Below are positions 21,572 to 45,979 of a stretch of DNA of 64,000 bases, one piece after another; the stretch's first letter is position 1, and every line of letters starts with the position of its first letter. A program made the position numbers and the translations under genes. The notes beneath the pieces were generated by a model. The model made no database searches. It saw only the letters and a list, made by a program, of their open reading frames with translations, and was not told the DNA's origin. The stretch is from Halobacterium sp. KA-4. Its GTDB lineage: Archaea > Halobacteriota > Halobacteria > Halobacteriales > Halobacteriaceae. Where the stretch lies: positions 1 to 64,000 of the forward strand of contig NZ_JAJJZG010000010.1 in the NCBI RefSeq assembly GCF_021028995.1. Direction: 5' to 3'.

Positions 21572-22714
21572 ATGCGTGTCGTCGTACTCGGCGGTGGTTA
21601 CGCGGGCGTCGTCCTGACCGACCGACTGGAAGACCGGCTCCCGGCCGATGTCGACCTTCTGGTAGTCGACGACACCGGCGACCACCTCGTCCAGCACGAA
21701 CTCCACCGCGCGATACGCCACCCGGAGTTCGCCGACGACATCGTCGTCCCGCTCGACGACATCTTCGACCGAGCGCGCGTCGAGGTCGCGACCGTCGAGG
21801 ACGTCGACCGAGATACCCGGCAGGTCGAACTCGCGGACGGCACCAGCCTCAACTATGACGTGGCTGCGGTCTGTCTCGGCGCGGAGACCGCGTACTACGG
21901 CCTTCCTGGTGTCGAGGCGCACGCCAGCCCGTTGAAGCGACTGCCGGACGCCGTGCGCATCCGCAGCGAGTTCGAGGACCTCGTCGATTCGAACGGCGGC
22001 ACGGCCGTCGTCGGCGGCGCTGGTCTCTCCGGCGTGCAGACGGCGGGCGAACTCGCGGCGTTCGCGCGCGAGGAGGACGCCGACGTCGACGTCGTGTTGC
22101 TCGAACAGCGCGAAACAATCGCGCCGTCGTTCCCCGAGCAGTTCCGGAACGCGGTCCGCGACGAACTCGACCGCGAGGGCGTCGACGTGCGCACCGGCGT
22201 CACCGTCTCGCGCGCGACGGACGAAGCAATCGAGACCGACGACGGCGACGTGGCCTACGACGTGTTCGTGTGGACGGGCGGCATCCGCGGTCCGAATGCA
22301 CTAGACGGCGAGCGCGTGGATGTCCGCGCGGACTTCGCTGTGGACGCCCACACGCTCGTACTCGGGGACGCTGCGCGGGTGGTCGACGCCGAAGGGACGG
22401 CAGTACCGGCGTCCGCGCAGGCGGCCGTCCGCGAGGCGAAGGTCGCGGCGCGGAACGTTGAGAAACTGGTCGCAGACCTGCGCGAGCACGACGACGGCTT
22501 CCGGCCGCGACTCGAACAGTACACGTTCGACTCGCCAGGCTGGCTGGTGAGCGTCGGTGACGGCGCGGTCGCACAGGTCGGCCCGAGCGTGTTCCGCGGC
22601 GCTGCGGCGAACGCCGTGAAGTCCGGCGTGGGCGCGAGCTACCTTGCGTCCGCCGGCGGCATCCGGGACGCGGTCGACTTACTCCGCGAGGAGTTCGAGC
22701 TCGTCGGGGAGTGA
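21572..22714 (+). CDS. NDH-2-like FAD/NAD(P) oxidoreductase
   Basis: This 380-residue flavoprotein begins with the FAD motif VVVLGGGYAGVVL and has the second dinucleotide fold at TAVVGGAGLSGVQTAGELA (about 149-167). HTLVLGDAARV is the C-terminal FAD contact. The layout matches type II NADH dehydrogenases and sulfide:quinone reductases. There is no obvious C-terminal membrane helix, though the end is amphipathic. The quinone substrate is assumed, not shown. Confidence 0.85.
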   Translation: MRVVVLGGGYAGVVLTDRLEDRLPADVDLLVVDDTGDHLVQHELHRAIRHPEFADDIVVPLDDIFDRARVEVATVEDVDRDTRQVELADGTSLNYDVAAVCLGAETAYYGLPGVEAHASPLKRLPDAVRIRSEFEDLVDSNGGTAVVGGAGLSGVQTAGELAAFAREEDADVDVVLLEQRETIAPSFPEQFRNAVRDELDREGVDVRTGVTVSRATDEAIETDDGDVAYDVFVWTGGIRGPNALDGERVDVRADFAVDAHTLVLGDAARVVDAEGTAVPASAQAAVREAKVAARNVEKLVADLREHDDGFRPRLEQYTFDSPGWLVSVGDGAVAQVGPSVFRGAAANAVKSGVGASYLASAGGIRDAVDLLREEFELVGE

Positions 22715-26422: not shown

Positions 26423-27118
26423 TCAGCTCTCGGGGTGTTGGAGCGTGAACGGGCTGTCTTCGCCGGGTGTCGCGCGCAGGACGCGCTGGACGCGGTTGTG
26501 CCATCTGTCGTGGAATTGGCGGCGTTCGGCGTCGGATGCCTCGCCTGCGACCAGTTTCGGAATTAAGTCTGTCACGCGGCCGCCGTCTGCGCCCGGCGGC
26601 GACATGCCGACCGCAGCCGGCGCGAACGAGACGCGGACGCTGTCGTCGGTGTCGAGGCGGTGGAACGCGAACGTACGGCCGGGGCCGTTGAGGTCCGTGA
26701 ACGATAACAGGTTCTCGCGACCACCGTAGCCGCCGAACCCCGTGAAGCCGGTCTCGCGATCCGCGCCGGTGACGTGGCTGACGACGTTCGCCATCGGGCC
26801 GAGGCCGTGGTCGTCGGGTTCGCCGCCAACCTCGACGGCGACGTCGCTGCGGACGGGGAGGTCGTCGGGGTAGAGGTCGTCGAGCGCGAGTTGGGTCGCG
26901 CGGAACGCGCCCGCGACGGCGGGGCAAGCGTGGCCTGCAGCGAGCACGACCTCGGGGAAACCGACGACCAGCGGGTCGCCCTCGGGGACGACGCCGAGCA
27001 GTTCCGCGAGCGGATCCCGGACAGCGATGGGGTCGGCGTCCGCGAGGTGCTGCCAGTTCGTTCGCTCGGTACCGCGTCTCGGTGTCGGGTCGGTCACGGG
27101 GTCGACAAGGTCACTCAT
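26423..27118 (-). CDS. FmdE-like protein
   Basis: This 231-residue protein contains GHACPAVAGAFRATQLAL at about residues 68-85, which matches the H-G-H-x-C-P-G-L start of FmdE, a family first named from the formylmethanofuran dehydrogenase operon. The conserved Cys and His could bind metal. A later part contains GFGGYGGRENLL. Haloarchaea lack methanogenesis, so the role must differ. It is the last gene of a copD-tusA-fmdE operon and overlaps tusA by 8 bases. A Mo- or metal-related or sulfur-handling role is inferred from context only. Confidence 0.7.
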   Translation of the reverse strand: MSDLVDPVTDPTPRRGTERTNWQHLADADPIAVRDPLAELLGVVPEGDPLVVGFPEVVLAAGHACPAVAGAFRATQLALDDLYPDDLPVRSDVAVEVGGEPDDHGLGPMANVVSHVTGADRETGFTGFGGYGGRENLLSFTDLNGPGRTFAFHRLDTDDSVRVSFAPAAVGMSPPGADGGRVTDLIPKLVAGEASDAERRQFHDRWHNRVQRVLRATPGEDSPFTLQHPES

Positions 27119-27392
27119 GTATTTCGAGGTAGGTGGTGTACTGTTTGCGGAGGACGCGCCGCCGGCTCTCGACGACGGCGAGCAGTTCGTGCGGGGTTTC
27201 GGCGGCGAGTTTCGGATACTCGGTCTTCGCGCGGCGGTCGGTGCTCTGGATTTCGAGTACCGCTCCTTCCGGGAGGTCTTCGAGCGCGCGCTGCACGCGC
27301 ACGATGCCGTTCGCGCAGCCGCGACCCCGGTTGTCGACGGTGCGGTCGGGGTCGACGCCGGGTTCGGTGTCGGGGACGTCGAGGTCGGGCAT
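27111..27392 (-). CDS. TusA-like sulfur carrier domain protein
   Basis: This 93-residue protein starts at the ATG at 27392. It has the TusA/SirA pattern: a short acidic leader, a strand, a cysteine followed by a helix (RGRGCANGIVRVQRALEDLP), then GAVLEIQSTDR. TusA proteins carry sulfur as a persulfide on the single cysteine. The canonical CPxP is changed: the Cys is present but the prolines are not. It overlaps copD by three bases (ATGA) and the fmdE-like gene by eight. Confidence 0.8.
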   Translation of the reverse strand: MPDLDVPDTEPGVDPDRTVDNRGRGCANGIVRVQRALEDLPEGAVLEIQSTDRRAKTEYPKLAAETPHELLAVVESRRRVLRKQYTTYLEIHE

Positions 27393-28342
27393 CAGTCGCC
27401 CACCTCCCTGTCCATCTCGGCGAGGTCGCAGACGCCGTCGATTGGTGAGCACGCGCGCCACATCGGGCACGCGAGGAAGATGGTGAACAGGACGGCGATG
27501 AACCCGAGTTTCGCGAGCACCGCGAGCCCGACAGTCGTGCCGACGTACGTGCCGATGCTGGTGCCGAGCGCGTCGACGGCCTGGTAGATGCCGGTCGCGA
27601 CGAGTGTCGGGATGACGAATCGTACTGTCCACCGGAAGCGTTCGAGTTGTTCGCCGGCGGCTTGGACGACGGGCGGCGTCGGGCGGAGTTGGCCGGTTGG
27701 CACGGCGACGAAGATGTTCCAGACGGCCCCGCCGACCCACGCCGCGAATGCGAGCAGGTGGATTGCACGGGAGGCCGCGGGGACGGCCCCGCCACCAGCG
27801 AGTGCGACGTCGGCGGTGGCAGACAGCGCGACGGTGAGGACGGCGCCCACGAGCGCGAGGACGCCGGCGAGCGTCCGGAAGCGTTCGGGCACGGGGGCGT
27901 CGTCGAAGGTGTCGATGGCTCCTGTGGAGACGGTAGCGCCGAGCGCGATGGCGAGTGCTGCGCGGAGTGTGAGGGGTGCGTCGGCGTAGACGACCGTGAG
28001 CAGTGCGACGCCGGTTACGGCGAGCACGGCGAGCGCGCCGACTGCGAGGCGGTCGAAGCGGCGGTACATCTCCGCGCAGTAGTCGGCGGCGGCGTCGACG
28101 TCGCCGGGGCGGACGAAGCCGTGTTTCCATAGCAGGCCGCCAAGGAGCACGCCGAGCGCGACGAAGTACCCCCACTTGGCGAGCGCCAGCACCGGTGACC
28201 ACTGTCCCGTGAGGTCGAGTGTCAGCGCGGTGCCGACCAGCGACGCTGCGAGGATGACCGCGAGCGCGGCCTTTGGGAGGAGGTACTTGTCGAAGAGTTC
28301 GTCGGCGACTGTGCCGGCCGGCTCGTGGGTTACGTCTGCCAT
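27392..28342 (-). CDS. CopD family membrane protein
   Basis: This 316-residue protein has eight or so helices. The C-terminal part contains a CopD-type region with IHLLAFAAWVGGAVWN and a closing segment with three cysteines (LACPMWRACSPIDGVCDL). CopD proteins take part in copper uptake or handling, but many members are of unknown role. It is the first gene of the copD-tusA-fmdE operon. A palindrome upstream suggests metal-dependent control. Confidence 0.84.
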   Translation of the reverse strand: MADVTHEPAGTVADELFDKYLLPKAALAVILAASLVGTALTLDLTGQWSPVLALAKWGYFVALGVLLGGLLWKHGFVRPGDVDAAADYCAEMYRRFDRLAVGALAVLAVTGVALLTVVYADAPLTLRAALAIALGATVSTGAIDTFDDAPVPERFRTLAGVLALVGAVLTVALSATADVALAGGGAVPAASRAIHLLAFAAWVGGAVWNIFVAVPTGQLRPTPPVVQAAGEQLERFRWTVRFVIPTLVATGIYQAVDALGTSIGTYVGTTVGLAVLAKLGFIAVLFTIFLACPMWRACSPIDGVCDLAEMDREVGD

Positions 28343-28368
28343 CGCGACTGGAACACCTCGTCAAGTGA

Positions 28369-28382
28369 TTAGGCATACCTAA
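28369..28382. promoter_or_regulatory. Palindromic operator resembling a DtxR/IdeR metal box
   Basis: The sequence TTAGGCATACCTAA is a perfect inverted repeat of five bases with a four-base centre. It resembles the TTAGG/CCTAA half-sites bound by DtxR/IdeR-type metal repressors. It lies 27-40 bases upstream of the copD ATG, where the TATA box of a nearly leaderless haloarchaeal promoter would be, so a bound repressor would block initiation. The regulator itself is not in the window. Confidence 0.6.
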
Positions 28383-28417
28383 ACTAAGGGCTGTGTGCGG
28401 ACATGTTCGGCCAGCAG

Positions 28418-29638
28418 TTAGCGCACCTCCAGCGCGACGACGACCGCAAGGAGGACGTACGCGAAGGCGACTGCCCCTGCTGCGGCGAGCACACGACCCG
28501 CGCTCGTCAGCGCAGGGATGCCGAACGCGAGGCCACTCGCTTCGACGGCCGCACCAGCGAGCAGCGCGGCGAGCGCGGCCCGCGTCGTCGCGTCACCGGT
28601 GTCTGGGGACTCGGCGACGCTCGGCGGGTAGAACTGGACGAGGAACCCCGCGACGGTCACCGTAAGGAATCCCCCGAGCACGAGCGCCACGTGACCCTCG
28701 ATTCGGGCGGCCGAGAGCCAGCCGGCGGCGACGCCTCCCGCCACGACGACCGCAACCGCGCCCGCCGCGAGTCCAGCGAGGATGCCGGAGAGGCCGACAC
28801 GCCGACGGTCCGACCGACCGAACAGCACCACCGCGTGCGCGAAGAATACGACGACGGCCGTGCCTTCGACGGCCGCGGCAGCGCGGAACAGCCAGCCGTC
28901 CCACAGCGAGACGGCGAGCAGCCCAGGGCCGACACCACCCGCGACGAGCACGACGATTGCGGGCACCGCGAACGGGTCGACGCCGAGGAACCGCGGGAGC
29001 AGACGCACACCAAGCACGAACACGAGTAGTGCGGCGACACCGGTGGCGAAGAGGTGCGAGACGCCGGCTGGCGACGCGGCGAGCAGGCGCGGGACGGTGG
29101 TCTGCGTGGCGAGCAGGTCGTACGACCCGACGACGAGGTAGGCGAACGGCACCGGCACCGCGAGCACCGCGGCGCGTTCGGCGCGGTTCGACACGTCTGC
29201 GAACGGGTCGCGGACAGCGCCGCGCACCGACCACGCCAGCGAACCGAGGAAGACAGCGACACCGCTACACCACAGCAACGCGCCGGCGACGCCGACAGTT
29301 TCGGAGACGGCTGCGGCGCCGCTCGCCGTAAGCAGCACCGTCCCGGACGCGGCGAACGCGAGGTGGACGCCGGGGAGTCGGCTCGGCGGATGGACGCGCC
29401 CAAAGTACGCGGGCACGAGCAGGTACGCGTGCCCGAAGACGACGTGGAGCACGAACCCGAGGACGGCGAAGTCGACGCCGCTGCGCGCCGGGAGGCCGAC
29501 GAGTAGCCCGACCCGCCAGAGCACGAGGAAGGCGACGCCCGTTGCCGTGAACAGCCGCGTCCACCGCCCGACGCCGGAGCCTGTGGCTGCCACGAGCGGA
29601 GTGACGTCCCAGTCCGTCGAGACACCTCTGTCGAACAT
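28418..29638 (-). CDS. Polytopic (about 12-helix) membrane protein
   Basis: This 406-residue protein is nearly all hydrophobic, with about twelve helices. Histidines in FGHAYLLVPAYFGRVH, HLFATG and EGHVALVLGG recur inside or next to helices, reminiscent of haem- or metal-binding NnrS and heme-copper-type families, but I cannot assign it to one. It lies on the same strand, upstream of copD; the 75-base gap contains the palindromic operator. A role with the copD-tusA-fmdE genes is inferred from context. Confidence 0.7.
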   Translation of the reverse strand: MFDRGVSTDWDVTPLVAATGSGVGRWTRLFTATGVAFLVLWRVGLLVGLPARSGVDFAVLGFVLHVVFGHAYLLVPAYFGRVHPPSRLPGVHLAFAASGTVLLTASGAAAVSETVGVAGALLWCSGVAVFLGSLAWSVRGAVRDPFADVSNRAERAAVLAVPVPFAYLVVGSYDLLATQTTVPRLLAASPAGVSHLFATGVAALLVFVLGVRLLPRFLGVDPFAVPAIVVLVAGGVGPGLLAVSLWDGWLFRAAAAVEGTAVVVFFAHAVVLFGRSDRRRVGLSGILAGLAAGAVAVVVAGGVAAGWLSAARIEGHVALVLGGFLTVTVAGFLVQFYPPSVAESPDTGDATTRAALAALLAGAAVEASGLAFGIPALTSAGRVLAAAGAVAFAYVLLAVVVALEVR

Positions 29639-29722
29639 GTTCTACGACCCGTGAGCATGGGTTCGTCGAGCCGAACATCTCCGGACGCAGGCCTTTGCGC
29701 GCTTGCGGCCTACGTCGAGGTG

Positions 29723-30580
29723 ATGAACTCTTCGACGCGCGACGCCGAGGCCGGCGTGGAGTGGACGCTGGCGAGCGCGCACGAGCGCTGCACGCCGGTC
29801 CAGCGGACGATTCGCTACCTCGAAGTCGTCCTCGAGTACCGGGGGCTGGAGGCCACGCGGTTCGGCGGCGGGTTCTTCCCCGACGCCGTCCCCTACACCT
29901 GCGGCAAGGAGGCGCGGGTCTTCTACTGGCGCTCGGTCCTCGACGCCGCCGCGCCCCCGGCAAGTGCGTGGGACCACGTCTGCGCGACGCCGTACGGCGT
30001 CCAGCCGGCGAGCGAGGACGAGAGCGTTACACCGACGCTGACGGCCGACGACGGGCGAACAGTCGTCGTGGAGGGGACGGTCAGTGGCGACTCGACGGAA
30101 GCCGAACTCGCAGCGGGCATGGCCCCCGACGTGTCTATCGAACGGGTGGACGGGGACGAGGTAGTCGTCGCGGCGGCCGGCGACCGCTACCGCGTGGCGT
30201 GCGGGGAACGCCGCGAACTCCCGCTCGGCGAGCAACGGGTCGAACTCCCCGACGGCGAGCACGCGACGACGACACCCGTGCTGACCGTCCGGTATCCGGG
30301 CAAGCGGACGTTCTACCATCCCGCGGTCGACGCGTCCTACCGACTGTTCCCGTCGTTCGGGCTCGACCTCGCCAACGCGCCCCGCGTGCTGGACGTGGAG
30401 CCGGGGCCGAACGTCGACGAAGAGGCGGTCGCCGCGGCACTTGGTGTCGACCTCGATTCGCGGCCGTACGCCGAGCGCGTGCTCTGGCAGGCGTTCGTCC
30501 ACACCGCGTTCGGGGACAACGCGGCGCCGACGCTCGCACAGTTCCCGGACGGGCTGTTACCCGTATGGCCGGGTGAGTGA
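29723..30580 (+). CDS. Uncharacterised acidic protein
   Basis: This encodes about 285 residues. The chosen ATG at 29723 follows a T-rich promoter-like stretch at about 29692; in-frame starts at 29651 and 29657 would leave almost no room for a promoter. The N-terminal third contains RTIRYLEVVLEYRGLEATRF and PYTCGKEARVFYW; the rest is beta-rich and acidic. I recognise no family. It is divergent from the polytopic protein gene. It is probably cytoplasmic. Confidence 0.6.
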   Translation: MNSSTRDAEAGVEWTLASAHERCTPVQRTIRYLEVVLEYRGLEATRFGGGFFPDAVPYTCGKEARVFYWRSVLDAAAPPASAWDHVCATPYGVQPASEDESVTPTLTADDGRTVVVEGTVSGDSTEAELAAGMAPDVSIERVDGDEVVVAAAGDRYRVACGERRELPLGEQRVELPDGEHATTTPVLTVRYPGKRTFYHPAVDASYRLFPSFGLDLANAPRVLDVEPGPNVDEEAVAAALGVDLDSRPYAERVLWQAFVHTAFGDNAAPTLAQFPDGLLPVWPGE

Positions 30581-44293: not shown

Positions 44294-45979
44294 ATGACGG
44301 TGGATATCGTGATGGTCTTGCAGGGACTCCGTTTGCTCGCAGCCGGGCTGTTGGTGGCTGCCTGCGGCTACGCAATCCAGCATCGAAACGAGCACGTGGC
44401 AGCCGCATTCATCTGGACGGTTGTCTCACTGACCGCCTGGGGGTGGCTTACGATGCTACCCAATTTCTTCGGCCCATCGTTTGTGACAGGTTTTAGTCAG
44501 ACCGTCGTTTCGCTGGGAGCGGCTGCTGCCGGAGGATGTGCGGTGGTGTTCTGGTTCGTGTATATTCGTCGCTACACCGGCCACCGCCAGTACGCTACGA
44601 CCCGACGCGTGCTGGTGATGCTCTCGCCGGTGGGTGTTGACCTCGCGATCCGCGTGTTGATGGTAACACCTCTGACCAGCCAGGTGGCGCCCGTCAGCGG
44701 TGTGCTAGCCGTCGTGTATACGACGCTGTATCTGTATCTCGCTGCCCTGTTCGTGCTGGGTATCTATCTCCTGTTCCGGCTCGCCCAACGATACAGACAG
44801 GTCCCGACCATGCAGGTTGCCGTGCTCGGGGTGGTGATCGCCGCGCCAGTTCTTGCGGTGCTCGTTAGTACGCTTACCCGGCCCGTCGAGGACGGTACAA
44901 CCGTCAGCATGCTTCCCGTAGATATATCCAGTCTCGGCTTTCTCCTCAGTGCGCTCGCGTTCGTGTACGCGATTCGAACGTATTCGCTGTTCACCACCTT
45001 TCCCGAGGCCGAGTACGTCGCCCGCGACGAAGTCCTCGAAGATCTCACTGAAGCCCTGTTCATCCTCGACCCAAGCAACCAGATTGTCGATATGAATGCG
45101 GCGGCGACGGACCTCTGCCAACAACCGGCTAAGGACACGATCGGGCAGCCGATTGACGCCGTGTTCAACGACCTCTCACACATTCCCACGGATGGCGTGC
45201 AACGCACGACGCTCCAGACACCCACCGGCCCCCGACAGTTCGAAATTAGTGCTTCAGCCCTCCAAGATGGTGATAACGCCCAGCTCGGAACAACCCTACT
45301 GGCTCGGGATATCACTGCGAAAACAACGCGTGAACAACAGCTTGCGGTGCTCACACGCGTCCTCCGGCACAACCTTCGGAACGACATCGATACCGCACTA
45401 GCGCACACGAATGAAATCACGGACCCCGATGTGCGGACGACAATCCGCTCGAAGCTGCACTCGCTCGCGGAGCTCGGCACCAAAGCCCGGGATATTGATG
45501 AGGTAGTTTCGAAGGCACACGAGCCACGGGAAGACGTTGATATCGTCAGCATCGTCCAGTCGGTCACGGAGCAGTTAGCGAGCGAATATGACTGTGAGAT
45601 CGAGGTGCGGGCGCCCGAGGAACTACGGATTGTCTCCCATCGGTGGCTGCTCTCGCGACTCCTCACGGAGTTAATCCAGAACGGAATCACGCACACCGAA
45701 CAGCCAACCCCACGCATCAACGTGGACGTCGAATGCGCCAACCGACACGACGGCCCGGTCACGATCAAAATCGCCGATAATGGGCCGGGCATCCCAGCGC
45801 ACGAACAGACCGCGATGCATGACGAAACGGAGACGCCACTTGAACACGGCAGCGGCGTCGGGCTCTGGCTCGCCAACTGGATTACTGAATCACTCGGTGG
45901 CAAACTGGCGTTCGACCAACGGGAGCCCACCGGCACGACCGTGACAGTCACACTGTGGCCGAACTCAACATCCAGTTGA
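44294..45979 (+). CDS. 7TM histidine kinase with PAS domain
   Basis: This encodes 561 residues from the ATG at 44294. Seven helices fill about 1-235; a PAS domain (about 255-350) contains ALFILDPSNQIVDMNAAA. The H-box is VLRHNLRNDIDTALAH, the N-box ELIQNGITHTE, G1 DNGPGI and G2 SGVGLWLANWI. It is a paralogue of the kinase at 40504-42150 in the opposite orientation. A small ORF ends two bases before its start, so the two may be co-translated. Confidence 0.9.
   Translation: MTVDIVMVLQGLRLLAAGLLVAACGYAIQHRNEHVAAAFIWTVVSLTAWGWLTMLPNFFGPSFVTGFSQTVVSLGAAAAGGCAVVFWFVYIRRYTGHRQYATTRRVLVMLSPVGVDLAIRVLMVTPLTSQVAPVSGVLAVVYTTLYLYLAALFVLGIYLLFRLAQRYRQVPTMQVAVLGVVIAAPVLAVLVSTLTRPVEDGTTVSMLPVDISSLGFLLSALAFVYAIRTYSLFTTFPEAEYVARDEVLEDLTEALFILDPSNQIVDMNAAATDLCQQPAKDTIGQPIDAVFNDLSHIPTDGVQRTTLQTPTGPRQFEISASALQDGDNAQLGTTLLARDITAKTTREQQLAVLTRVLRHNLRNDIDTALAHTNEITDPDVRTTIRSKLHSLAELGTKARDIDEVVSKAHEPREDVDIVSIVQSVTEQLASEYDCEIEVRAPEELRIVSHRWLLSRLLTELIQNGITHTEQPTPRINVDVECANRHDGPVTIKIADNGPGIPAHEQTAMHDETETPLEHGSGVGLWLANWITESLGGKLAFDQREPTGTTVTVTLWPNSTSS

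Follow-up and report, generated by a model that had tools for sequence, protein, structure and literature searches.

In the stretch of Halobacterium sp. KA-4 analyzed here (contig NZ_JAJJZG010000010.1, positions 1 to 64,000; the window, 64,000 nucleotides), three overlapping genes encoding CopD-like, TusA-like, and FmdE-like proteins lie near a divergently transcribed gene of a family without assignment. The copD-tusA-fmdE unit is apparently an unreported, dual-regulated accessory module of archaeal nitric oxide (NO) respiration, as predicted from its promoter and genomic associations. On balance, we lean toward a reading in which these genes, together with the divergent gene, would form an accessory module of respiration that produces or reduces NO. 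A search limited to the open-access literature returned no relevant work on FmdE with CopD/TusA or with nirK. The features of the locus are as follows.

26423-27118, minus strand: FmdE-like protein, 231 amino acids; motif GHACP (H63, C65) and H207; PF02663 and fold match
27111-27392, minus strand: TusA-like protein, 93 amino acids; single Cys26, no CPxP; PF01206
27392-28342, minus strand: CopD-like membrane protein, 316 amino acids; C-terminal CPMWRACSPIDGVC; PF05425 just under cut-off
28369-28382: IdeR/DtxR-type iron-repressor palindrome TTAGGCATACCTAA, 40 bp upstream of copD
28398-28409: denitrification-regulon palindrome CGGACATGTTCG, differing from the published motif at one position; 67 bp upstream of copD
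28418-29638, minus strand: 12-helix membrane protein, 406 amino acids; 12 hydropathy peaks
29632-29643: near-palindrome AGAACATGTTCG of the denitrification type, lying over the 12-helix gene start and 91 bp upstream of the divergent gene
29723-30580, plus strand: divergent soluble protein, 285 amino acids, family without assignment

An earlier note on this DNA had described overlaps of 3 and 8 bases among the three genes. The overlaps are real and that between tusA and fmdE is indeed 8 bases, but copD and tusA share 1 base (TGATG).

Conservation and the link to NO reductase

Genes were called at about 30 haloarchaeal loci carrying the window-type CopD or its FmdE. TusA directly followed CopD at 28 of them and the divergent gene lay beside the pair at 25, as against 13 loci with FmdE next to the pair and 5 with the 12-helix protein. 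By these counts, the conserved core consists of copD-tusA and the divergent gene, and fmdE is often added as a third gene. CopD-TusA was spread over about 10 haloarchaeal genera, so the neighborhood survey called for in the earlier note came out in favor of conservation, with FmdE adjoining at the 13 loci given above. The divergent gene, which that note had passed over, is a conserved fourth partner; its product had no Pfam match above cut-off. In several g9 genomes, a cytochrome D1-type propeller protein (PF02239, E 2e-63; L162:7945-9204) directly followed copD-tusA, and it is possibly related to heme d1 or a nitrite reductase.

A paralogous FmdE, type B, was 45-50% identical to the window-type protein and occurred in a module with a helix-turn-helix (HTH) regulator, a small HMA protein, and a P-type ATPase. 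This module was widespread in haloarchaea, often plasmid-borne and beside integrases (in the KA-4 genome at L023:9693-12514, G000:C13; also L031-L042 and L047-L102). Its parts were an ArsR-like HTH protein, a 71-amino-acid HMA protein, the ATPase, and the FmdE-like protein; the transmembrane motif of the ATPase was unusual in reading CPG instead of CPC, and the ATPase itself lacked an HMA domain.

Co-occurrence was examined in 292 genomes of the class, 25 of which carried the window-type CopD (strong matches). The quinol NO reductase qNor was encoded in every one of these 25 genomes vs. 137 of the 267 others (p 2e-7). Within Halobacterium, the split was complete (5/5 copD-positive vs. 0/5 copD-negative genomes), and a genus-stratified test gave a chi2 of 20.7, with strata counted by hand. 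Associations with NirK (20 of 25, p 0.006) and NosZ (13 of 25, p 0.02) were weaker than that with qNor, and a link to NirK alone was set aside on this comparison. The copD module follows NO reductase best, yet it is optional, because most qNor-positive genomes do without it.

In the KA-4 genome itself, qNor and NirK were encoded on another contig together with halocyanin, a Bat-type regulator, DUF2249 proteins, a 12-helix protein resembling COX1, and a peptide of the CGCGG type, the last of these named after annotated relatives. The same families also flanked copD-tusA in Halorussus, Haloprofundus, Halomicrobium, and others, and the iron-sulfur (Fe-S) repair protein RIC and DtxR-type regulators were found beside copD in other haloarchaea. 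Proteins of the CGCGG radical SAM-modified peptide type adjoined NirK or CopD-TusA (L188:14068-14373, L190:4891-5205, L213:8492-8800), which suggests that a modified peptide is linked with denitrification. A radical SAM gene of the TIGR04053 family adjoined a nitrite reductase in Thermus. A four-copy DUF2249 protein (L197:2496-3566; also L046:12708-13766) had a DtxR-type regulator and a sulfite-oxidase-like protein as neighbors; at L197, the denitrification palindrome lay 51 bp upstream of its gene.

Two palindromes in the copD promoter

In Haloferax mediterranei, the promoters of nirK, nor, and nosZ share the semi-palindrome CGAAYATDKTYG at -79, -66, and -69, respectively, and its mutation significantly lowers nor and nos expression (PMC10062603). 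We scanned copD upstream regions for this published motif, allowing at most one mismatch. At 23 of 30 loci, copD had it at a distance of 52-84 bp upstream, vs. 30 of 634 other genes from the same DNA (Fisher 4e-22, a value that is too small because the loci are related). The positive loci came from about eight genera; versions with two mismatches, or weaker ones, were seen in Haloferax and at a few further copD loci, and none of 56 promoters of the type-B FmdE module carried the motif. In the KA-4 genome, the same palindrome was upstream of qNor, DUF2249, the CGCGG-type peptide, the Bat-type regulator, and the COX1-like gene near nirK; nirK itself had none within 150 bp upstream. A further near-palindrome of this type, CGAACGTATTCG, lies at 44975-44986 of the window.

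The module resembles the haloarchaeal denitrification regulon (nirK, nor, nosZ, and DUF2249 genes; PMC10062603, PMC11218638) in having the same palindrome at the same distance and in sharing the same neighboring families. Text searches found no mention of CopD or TusA in PMC11218638 or in the distribution survey PMC8400030. On its promoter and neighbors, the copD-tusA-fmdE unit is a predicted member of this denitrification/NO regulon. The earlier note had associated FmdE with methanogens; the palindrome and the qNor linkage place the operon in a setting of denitrification and NO reduction and not of methanogen-like chemistry.

The second palindrome, TTAGGCATACCTAA, lies between the denitrification site and copD and matches exactly the 14-bp TTAGGNNNNCCTAA, a proposed consensus for IdeR/DtxR iron repressors (PMC8464063); the putative assignment draws on this bacterial IdeR consensus and on the other genomic sites. 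The box was present in 17 of 30 copD promoters vs. 18 of 555 others, an exploratory statistic because the box was noticed in aligned upstream regions and not predicted. The 3.3-Mb genome holds ten exact sites, copD's among them, and several of the others are just upstream of genes that, in our own sequence reading, resemble iron-uptake binding proteins and permeases. At several loci, a DtxR-family regulator gene neighbored the copD module. The iron-repressor box thus lends support to a predicted metal link of the membrane module.

The core proteins and their bacterial relatives

Searches against Pfam placed the TusA-like protein above the curated cut-off of PF01206 (36.8 vs. 28.6 bits) and the FmdE-like protein above that of PF02663 (23.8 vs. 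22.9), with the CopD-like protein below that of PF05425 (30.8 vs. 32.1). Three C-terminal cysteines of the CopD-like protein, C292, C298, and C305, together with His/Cys residues, were conserved in an alignment of relatives. In the TusA-like protein, DNRGxGC, Cys26, and His68 were invariant in 28/28 relatives. Like TusA sulfurtransferases, it keeps a cysteine at the catalytic position; unlike them, it has an invariant His68 and a membrane-protein partner, and the CPxP motif was absent from all 28 relatives, replaced in haloarchaea by C[A/S][N/S]G. The missing prolines remarked on in the earlier note are thus confirmed, for the window protein and for these relatives.

The FmdE family takes its name from formylmethanofuran dehydrogenase operons. 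The window protein shares its H-x-C-P segment and its fold: the best matches of the predicted structure in the PDB were the FmdE-like 2glz (E 2.6e-5), 2gvi, and 3d00, with modest TM-scores (about 0.5-0.6 by target), and PDB sequence searches gave nothing useful. It differs in having one cysteine only, and many inspected relatives were found with nirK/nor/nap or metal-ATPase genes; none was seen with methanofuran genes. In two Azospirillum, the FmdE relative lay directly after nirK, before a hemerythrin gene and next to norCBQ; in Paracoccus, it was accompanied by Rrf2 and NnrS genes; and in the Campylobacterota Sulfurospirillum and Sulfuricurvum, it lay near nap genes. The Campylobacterota fmdE operon also encoded an Fe-S assembly protein (PF01883) and a 12-helix protein resembling COX1, and it appears to echo the archaeal gene set.

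A closer parallel was found on Thermus thermophilus plasmids, where one 363-residue protein is a fusion of CopD-like and TusA-like parts. By BLASTP, the first part was 32% identical to the window CopD over nearly its full length, and the last part was 38% identical to the window TusA. The TusA part has CALG instead of CPxP, and the C-terminal cysteine motif of the CopD part reads CPLYRQCSPVKGVC in the fusion and CPMWRACSPIDGVC in the window. The Pfam and BLASTP results together gave a polytopic CopD-like part followed by a TusA-like cytoplasmic domain, the make-up looked for in NrcE. The gene order was a ferredoxin gene, the fusion, an SdhB-like gene, and an NDH-2 flavoprotein gene, with nar and nir genes near. 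This matches nrcDEFN, an operon of a denitrification island that encodes the Nrc NADH dehydrogenase used in nitrate respiration and is transcribed under anoxia with nitrate (PMC7694296). NrcE is polytopic and binds NrcF and NrcN through its cytoplasmic C-terminus (its two-hybrid partners, NarI being another), and nrcE mutants grow more slowly on nitrate and oxidize less NADH (PMC7694296).

Because the Thermus fusion sits in an operon matching nrcDEFN, the CopD-TusA pair is, as judged by sequence and gene order, a putative split relative of NrcE. Both combine a CopD-like part with a CPxP-less TusA-like domain and carry the same C-terminal cysteine motif; the window has two overlapping genes where Thermus has one fusion, and it adds the divergent gene, often FmdE, and the iron-repressor box. 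A flavoprotein gene of the NDH-2 type in the window (21572-22714), some 4 kb away from the operon and on the opposite strand, encodes a protein 29% identical to the Thermus NrcN-type protein. Two claims of the earlier note were accordingly narrowed. Its membrane-linked metal and sulfur pathway keeps the membrane module and, through the iron box, the metal link, but sulfur transfer is not supported, given the TusA without CPxP and a Thermus domain that is a cytoplasmic tail docking redox subunits. Its description of the pathway as novel holds for the operon, which is apparently unreported, but not wholly for the CopD-TusA pair, which has its counterpart in NrcE, a subunit of the Nrc NADH dehydrogenase in Thermus.

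The 12-helix gene, which had been taken as the first of four genes in the operon, was rejected as a member: it is absent at most related loci, and 75 bp containing two palindromes, the copD promoter, separate it from copD. The 406-residue protein had no Pfam or NCBIfam match, NnrS (PF05940) and PF00115 included. An NnrS identity was dropped on this result and on a weak COX1-like profile similarity (hhalign, 58% probability over 97 columns). Only H92, H195, and H316 of its seven His were invariant among five relatives, for which reason the regular His spacing seen earlier is weakly supported. The AlphaFold model (pLDDT 41) was unusable, a PHROG match (E 8e-4) was uninformative, and a PDB sequence search gave nothing useful. 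COX1/CcoN-like 12-helix proteins of ~425 amino acids occurred in denitrification neighborhoods of haloarchaea and Campylobacterota (L188:15781-17058, L044:5729-7102, L103:8421-9695).

Possible mechanism, rival explanations, and significance

As an accessory module of NO respiration, the system might work as follows. The CopD-like subunit would sit in the membrane, with the TusA-like subunit docked to it on the cytoplasmic side, close to the C-terminal cysteines of CPMWRACSPIDGVC. As proposed for NrcE, soluble redox partners would supply the pair with electrons, which it would hand on to the quinone/N-oxide reductase chain in the membrane. The invariant Cys and His of TusA and the three C-terminal cysteines of CopD make up a candidate metal or Fe-S site at the interface. 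The FmdE-like subunit, whose part is the least certain, may bind metal and keep this site, or another center nearby that is exposed to NO, in working order. Transcription is predicted from the promoter to be switched on at low oxygen or by N-oxides and raised further when iron is scarce. We regard as speculative, and on present evidence unlikely, the further idea that the FmdE-, TusA-, and CopD-like subunits form a shared cysteine-ligated metal or Fe-S site in a widespread, unrecognized NO-respiration complex working under NO and iron limitation. If it were true, such FmdE-like proteins would be NO/N-oxide accessory factors and not methanofuran proteins.

Several observations weigh against a respiratory accessory module of the Nrc type. 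No nrcD, nrcF, or nrcN was recognized beside the module at the roughly 30 haloarchaeal loci, and the NDH-2-like gene at 21572-22714 was conserved near the operon within the genus only. The Thermus fusion was equated with NrcE by gene order and the published description. FmdE was absent from about half of the CopD-TusA loci, 137 of the 162 qNor-positive haloarchaea were without the module, and the iron-repressor box was missing at g9 loci.

The main rival is maturation or repair of metal centers under NO, in which CopD would move Cu or Fe, TusA and FmdE would carry sulfur or metal, and the Cu, heme-Fe, or Fe-S centers of NirK, qNor, and others, damaged by NO, would be built or mended. The iron-repressor box and DtxR neighbors are consistent with this, as are the Fe-S repair proteins of the RIC/hemerythrin type that neighbor copD in Halorussus and Haloprofundus, the hemerythrin beside FmdE in Azospirillum, and PF01883 in the Campylobacterota operon. 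A TusA without CPxP, a CopD-like protein below its family cut-off, and the redox role of the Thermus homologue established by published genetics (PMC7694296) point the other way, and we consider this explanation possible but not probable. A copper resistance or homeostasis operon unrelated to respiration is suggested by the CopD similarity and by the type-B paralogue sitting with a metal P-type ATPase; it is very improbable given the promoter motif, the qNor linkage, and the absence of copper-resistance genes beside the module at the surveyed loci. Supply of sulfur and copper to the CuZ (Cu4S2) center of nitrous oxide reductase would bring the copper-type and sulfur-type annotations and the denitrification motif together, but it is contradicted by the 12 of 25 copD-positive genomes without NosZ and is hardly credible.

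Little is known about the accessory factors of denitrification in archaea, and haloarchaea may be a source of N-oxide gases. The accessory module favored here would offer a specific operon associated with NO reductase and predicted from its promoter to respond to N-oxides or oxygen and to iron, and it would link an archaeal operon to the experimentally studied Nrc system of Thermus. Transcriptomics of H. mediterranei reportedly revealed unexplained changes in iron genes under denitrification; a promoter with both boxes is one place where the two controls could meet. The FmdE-like and TusA-like proteins of haloarchaea would thereby gain a testable physiological role.

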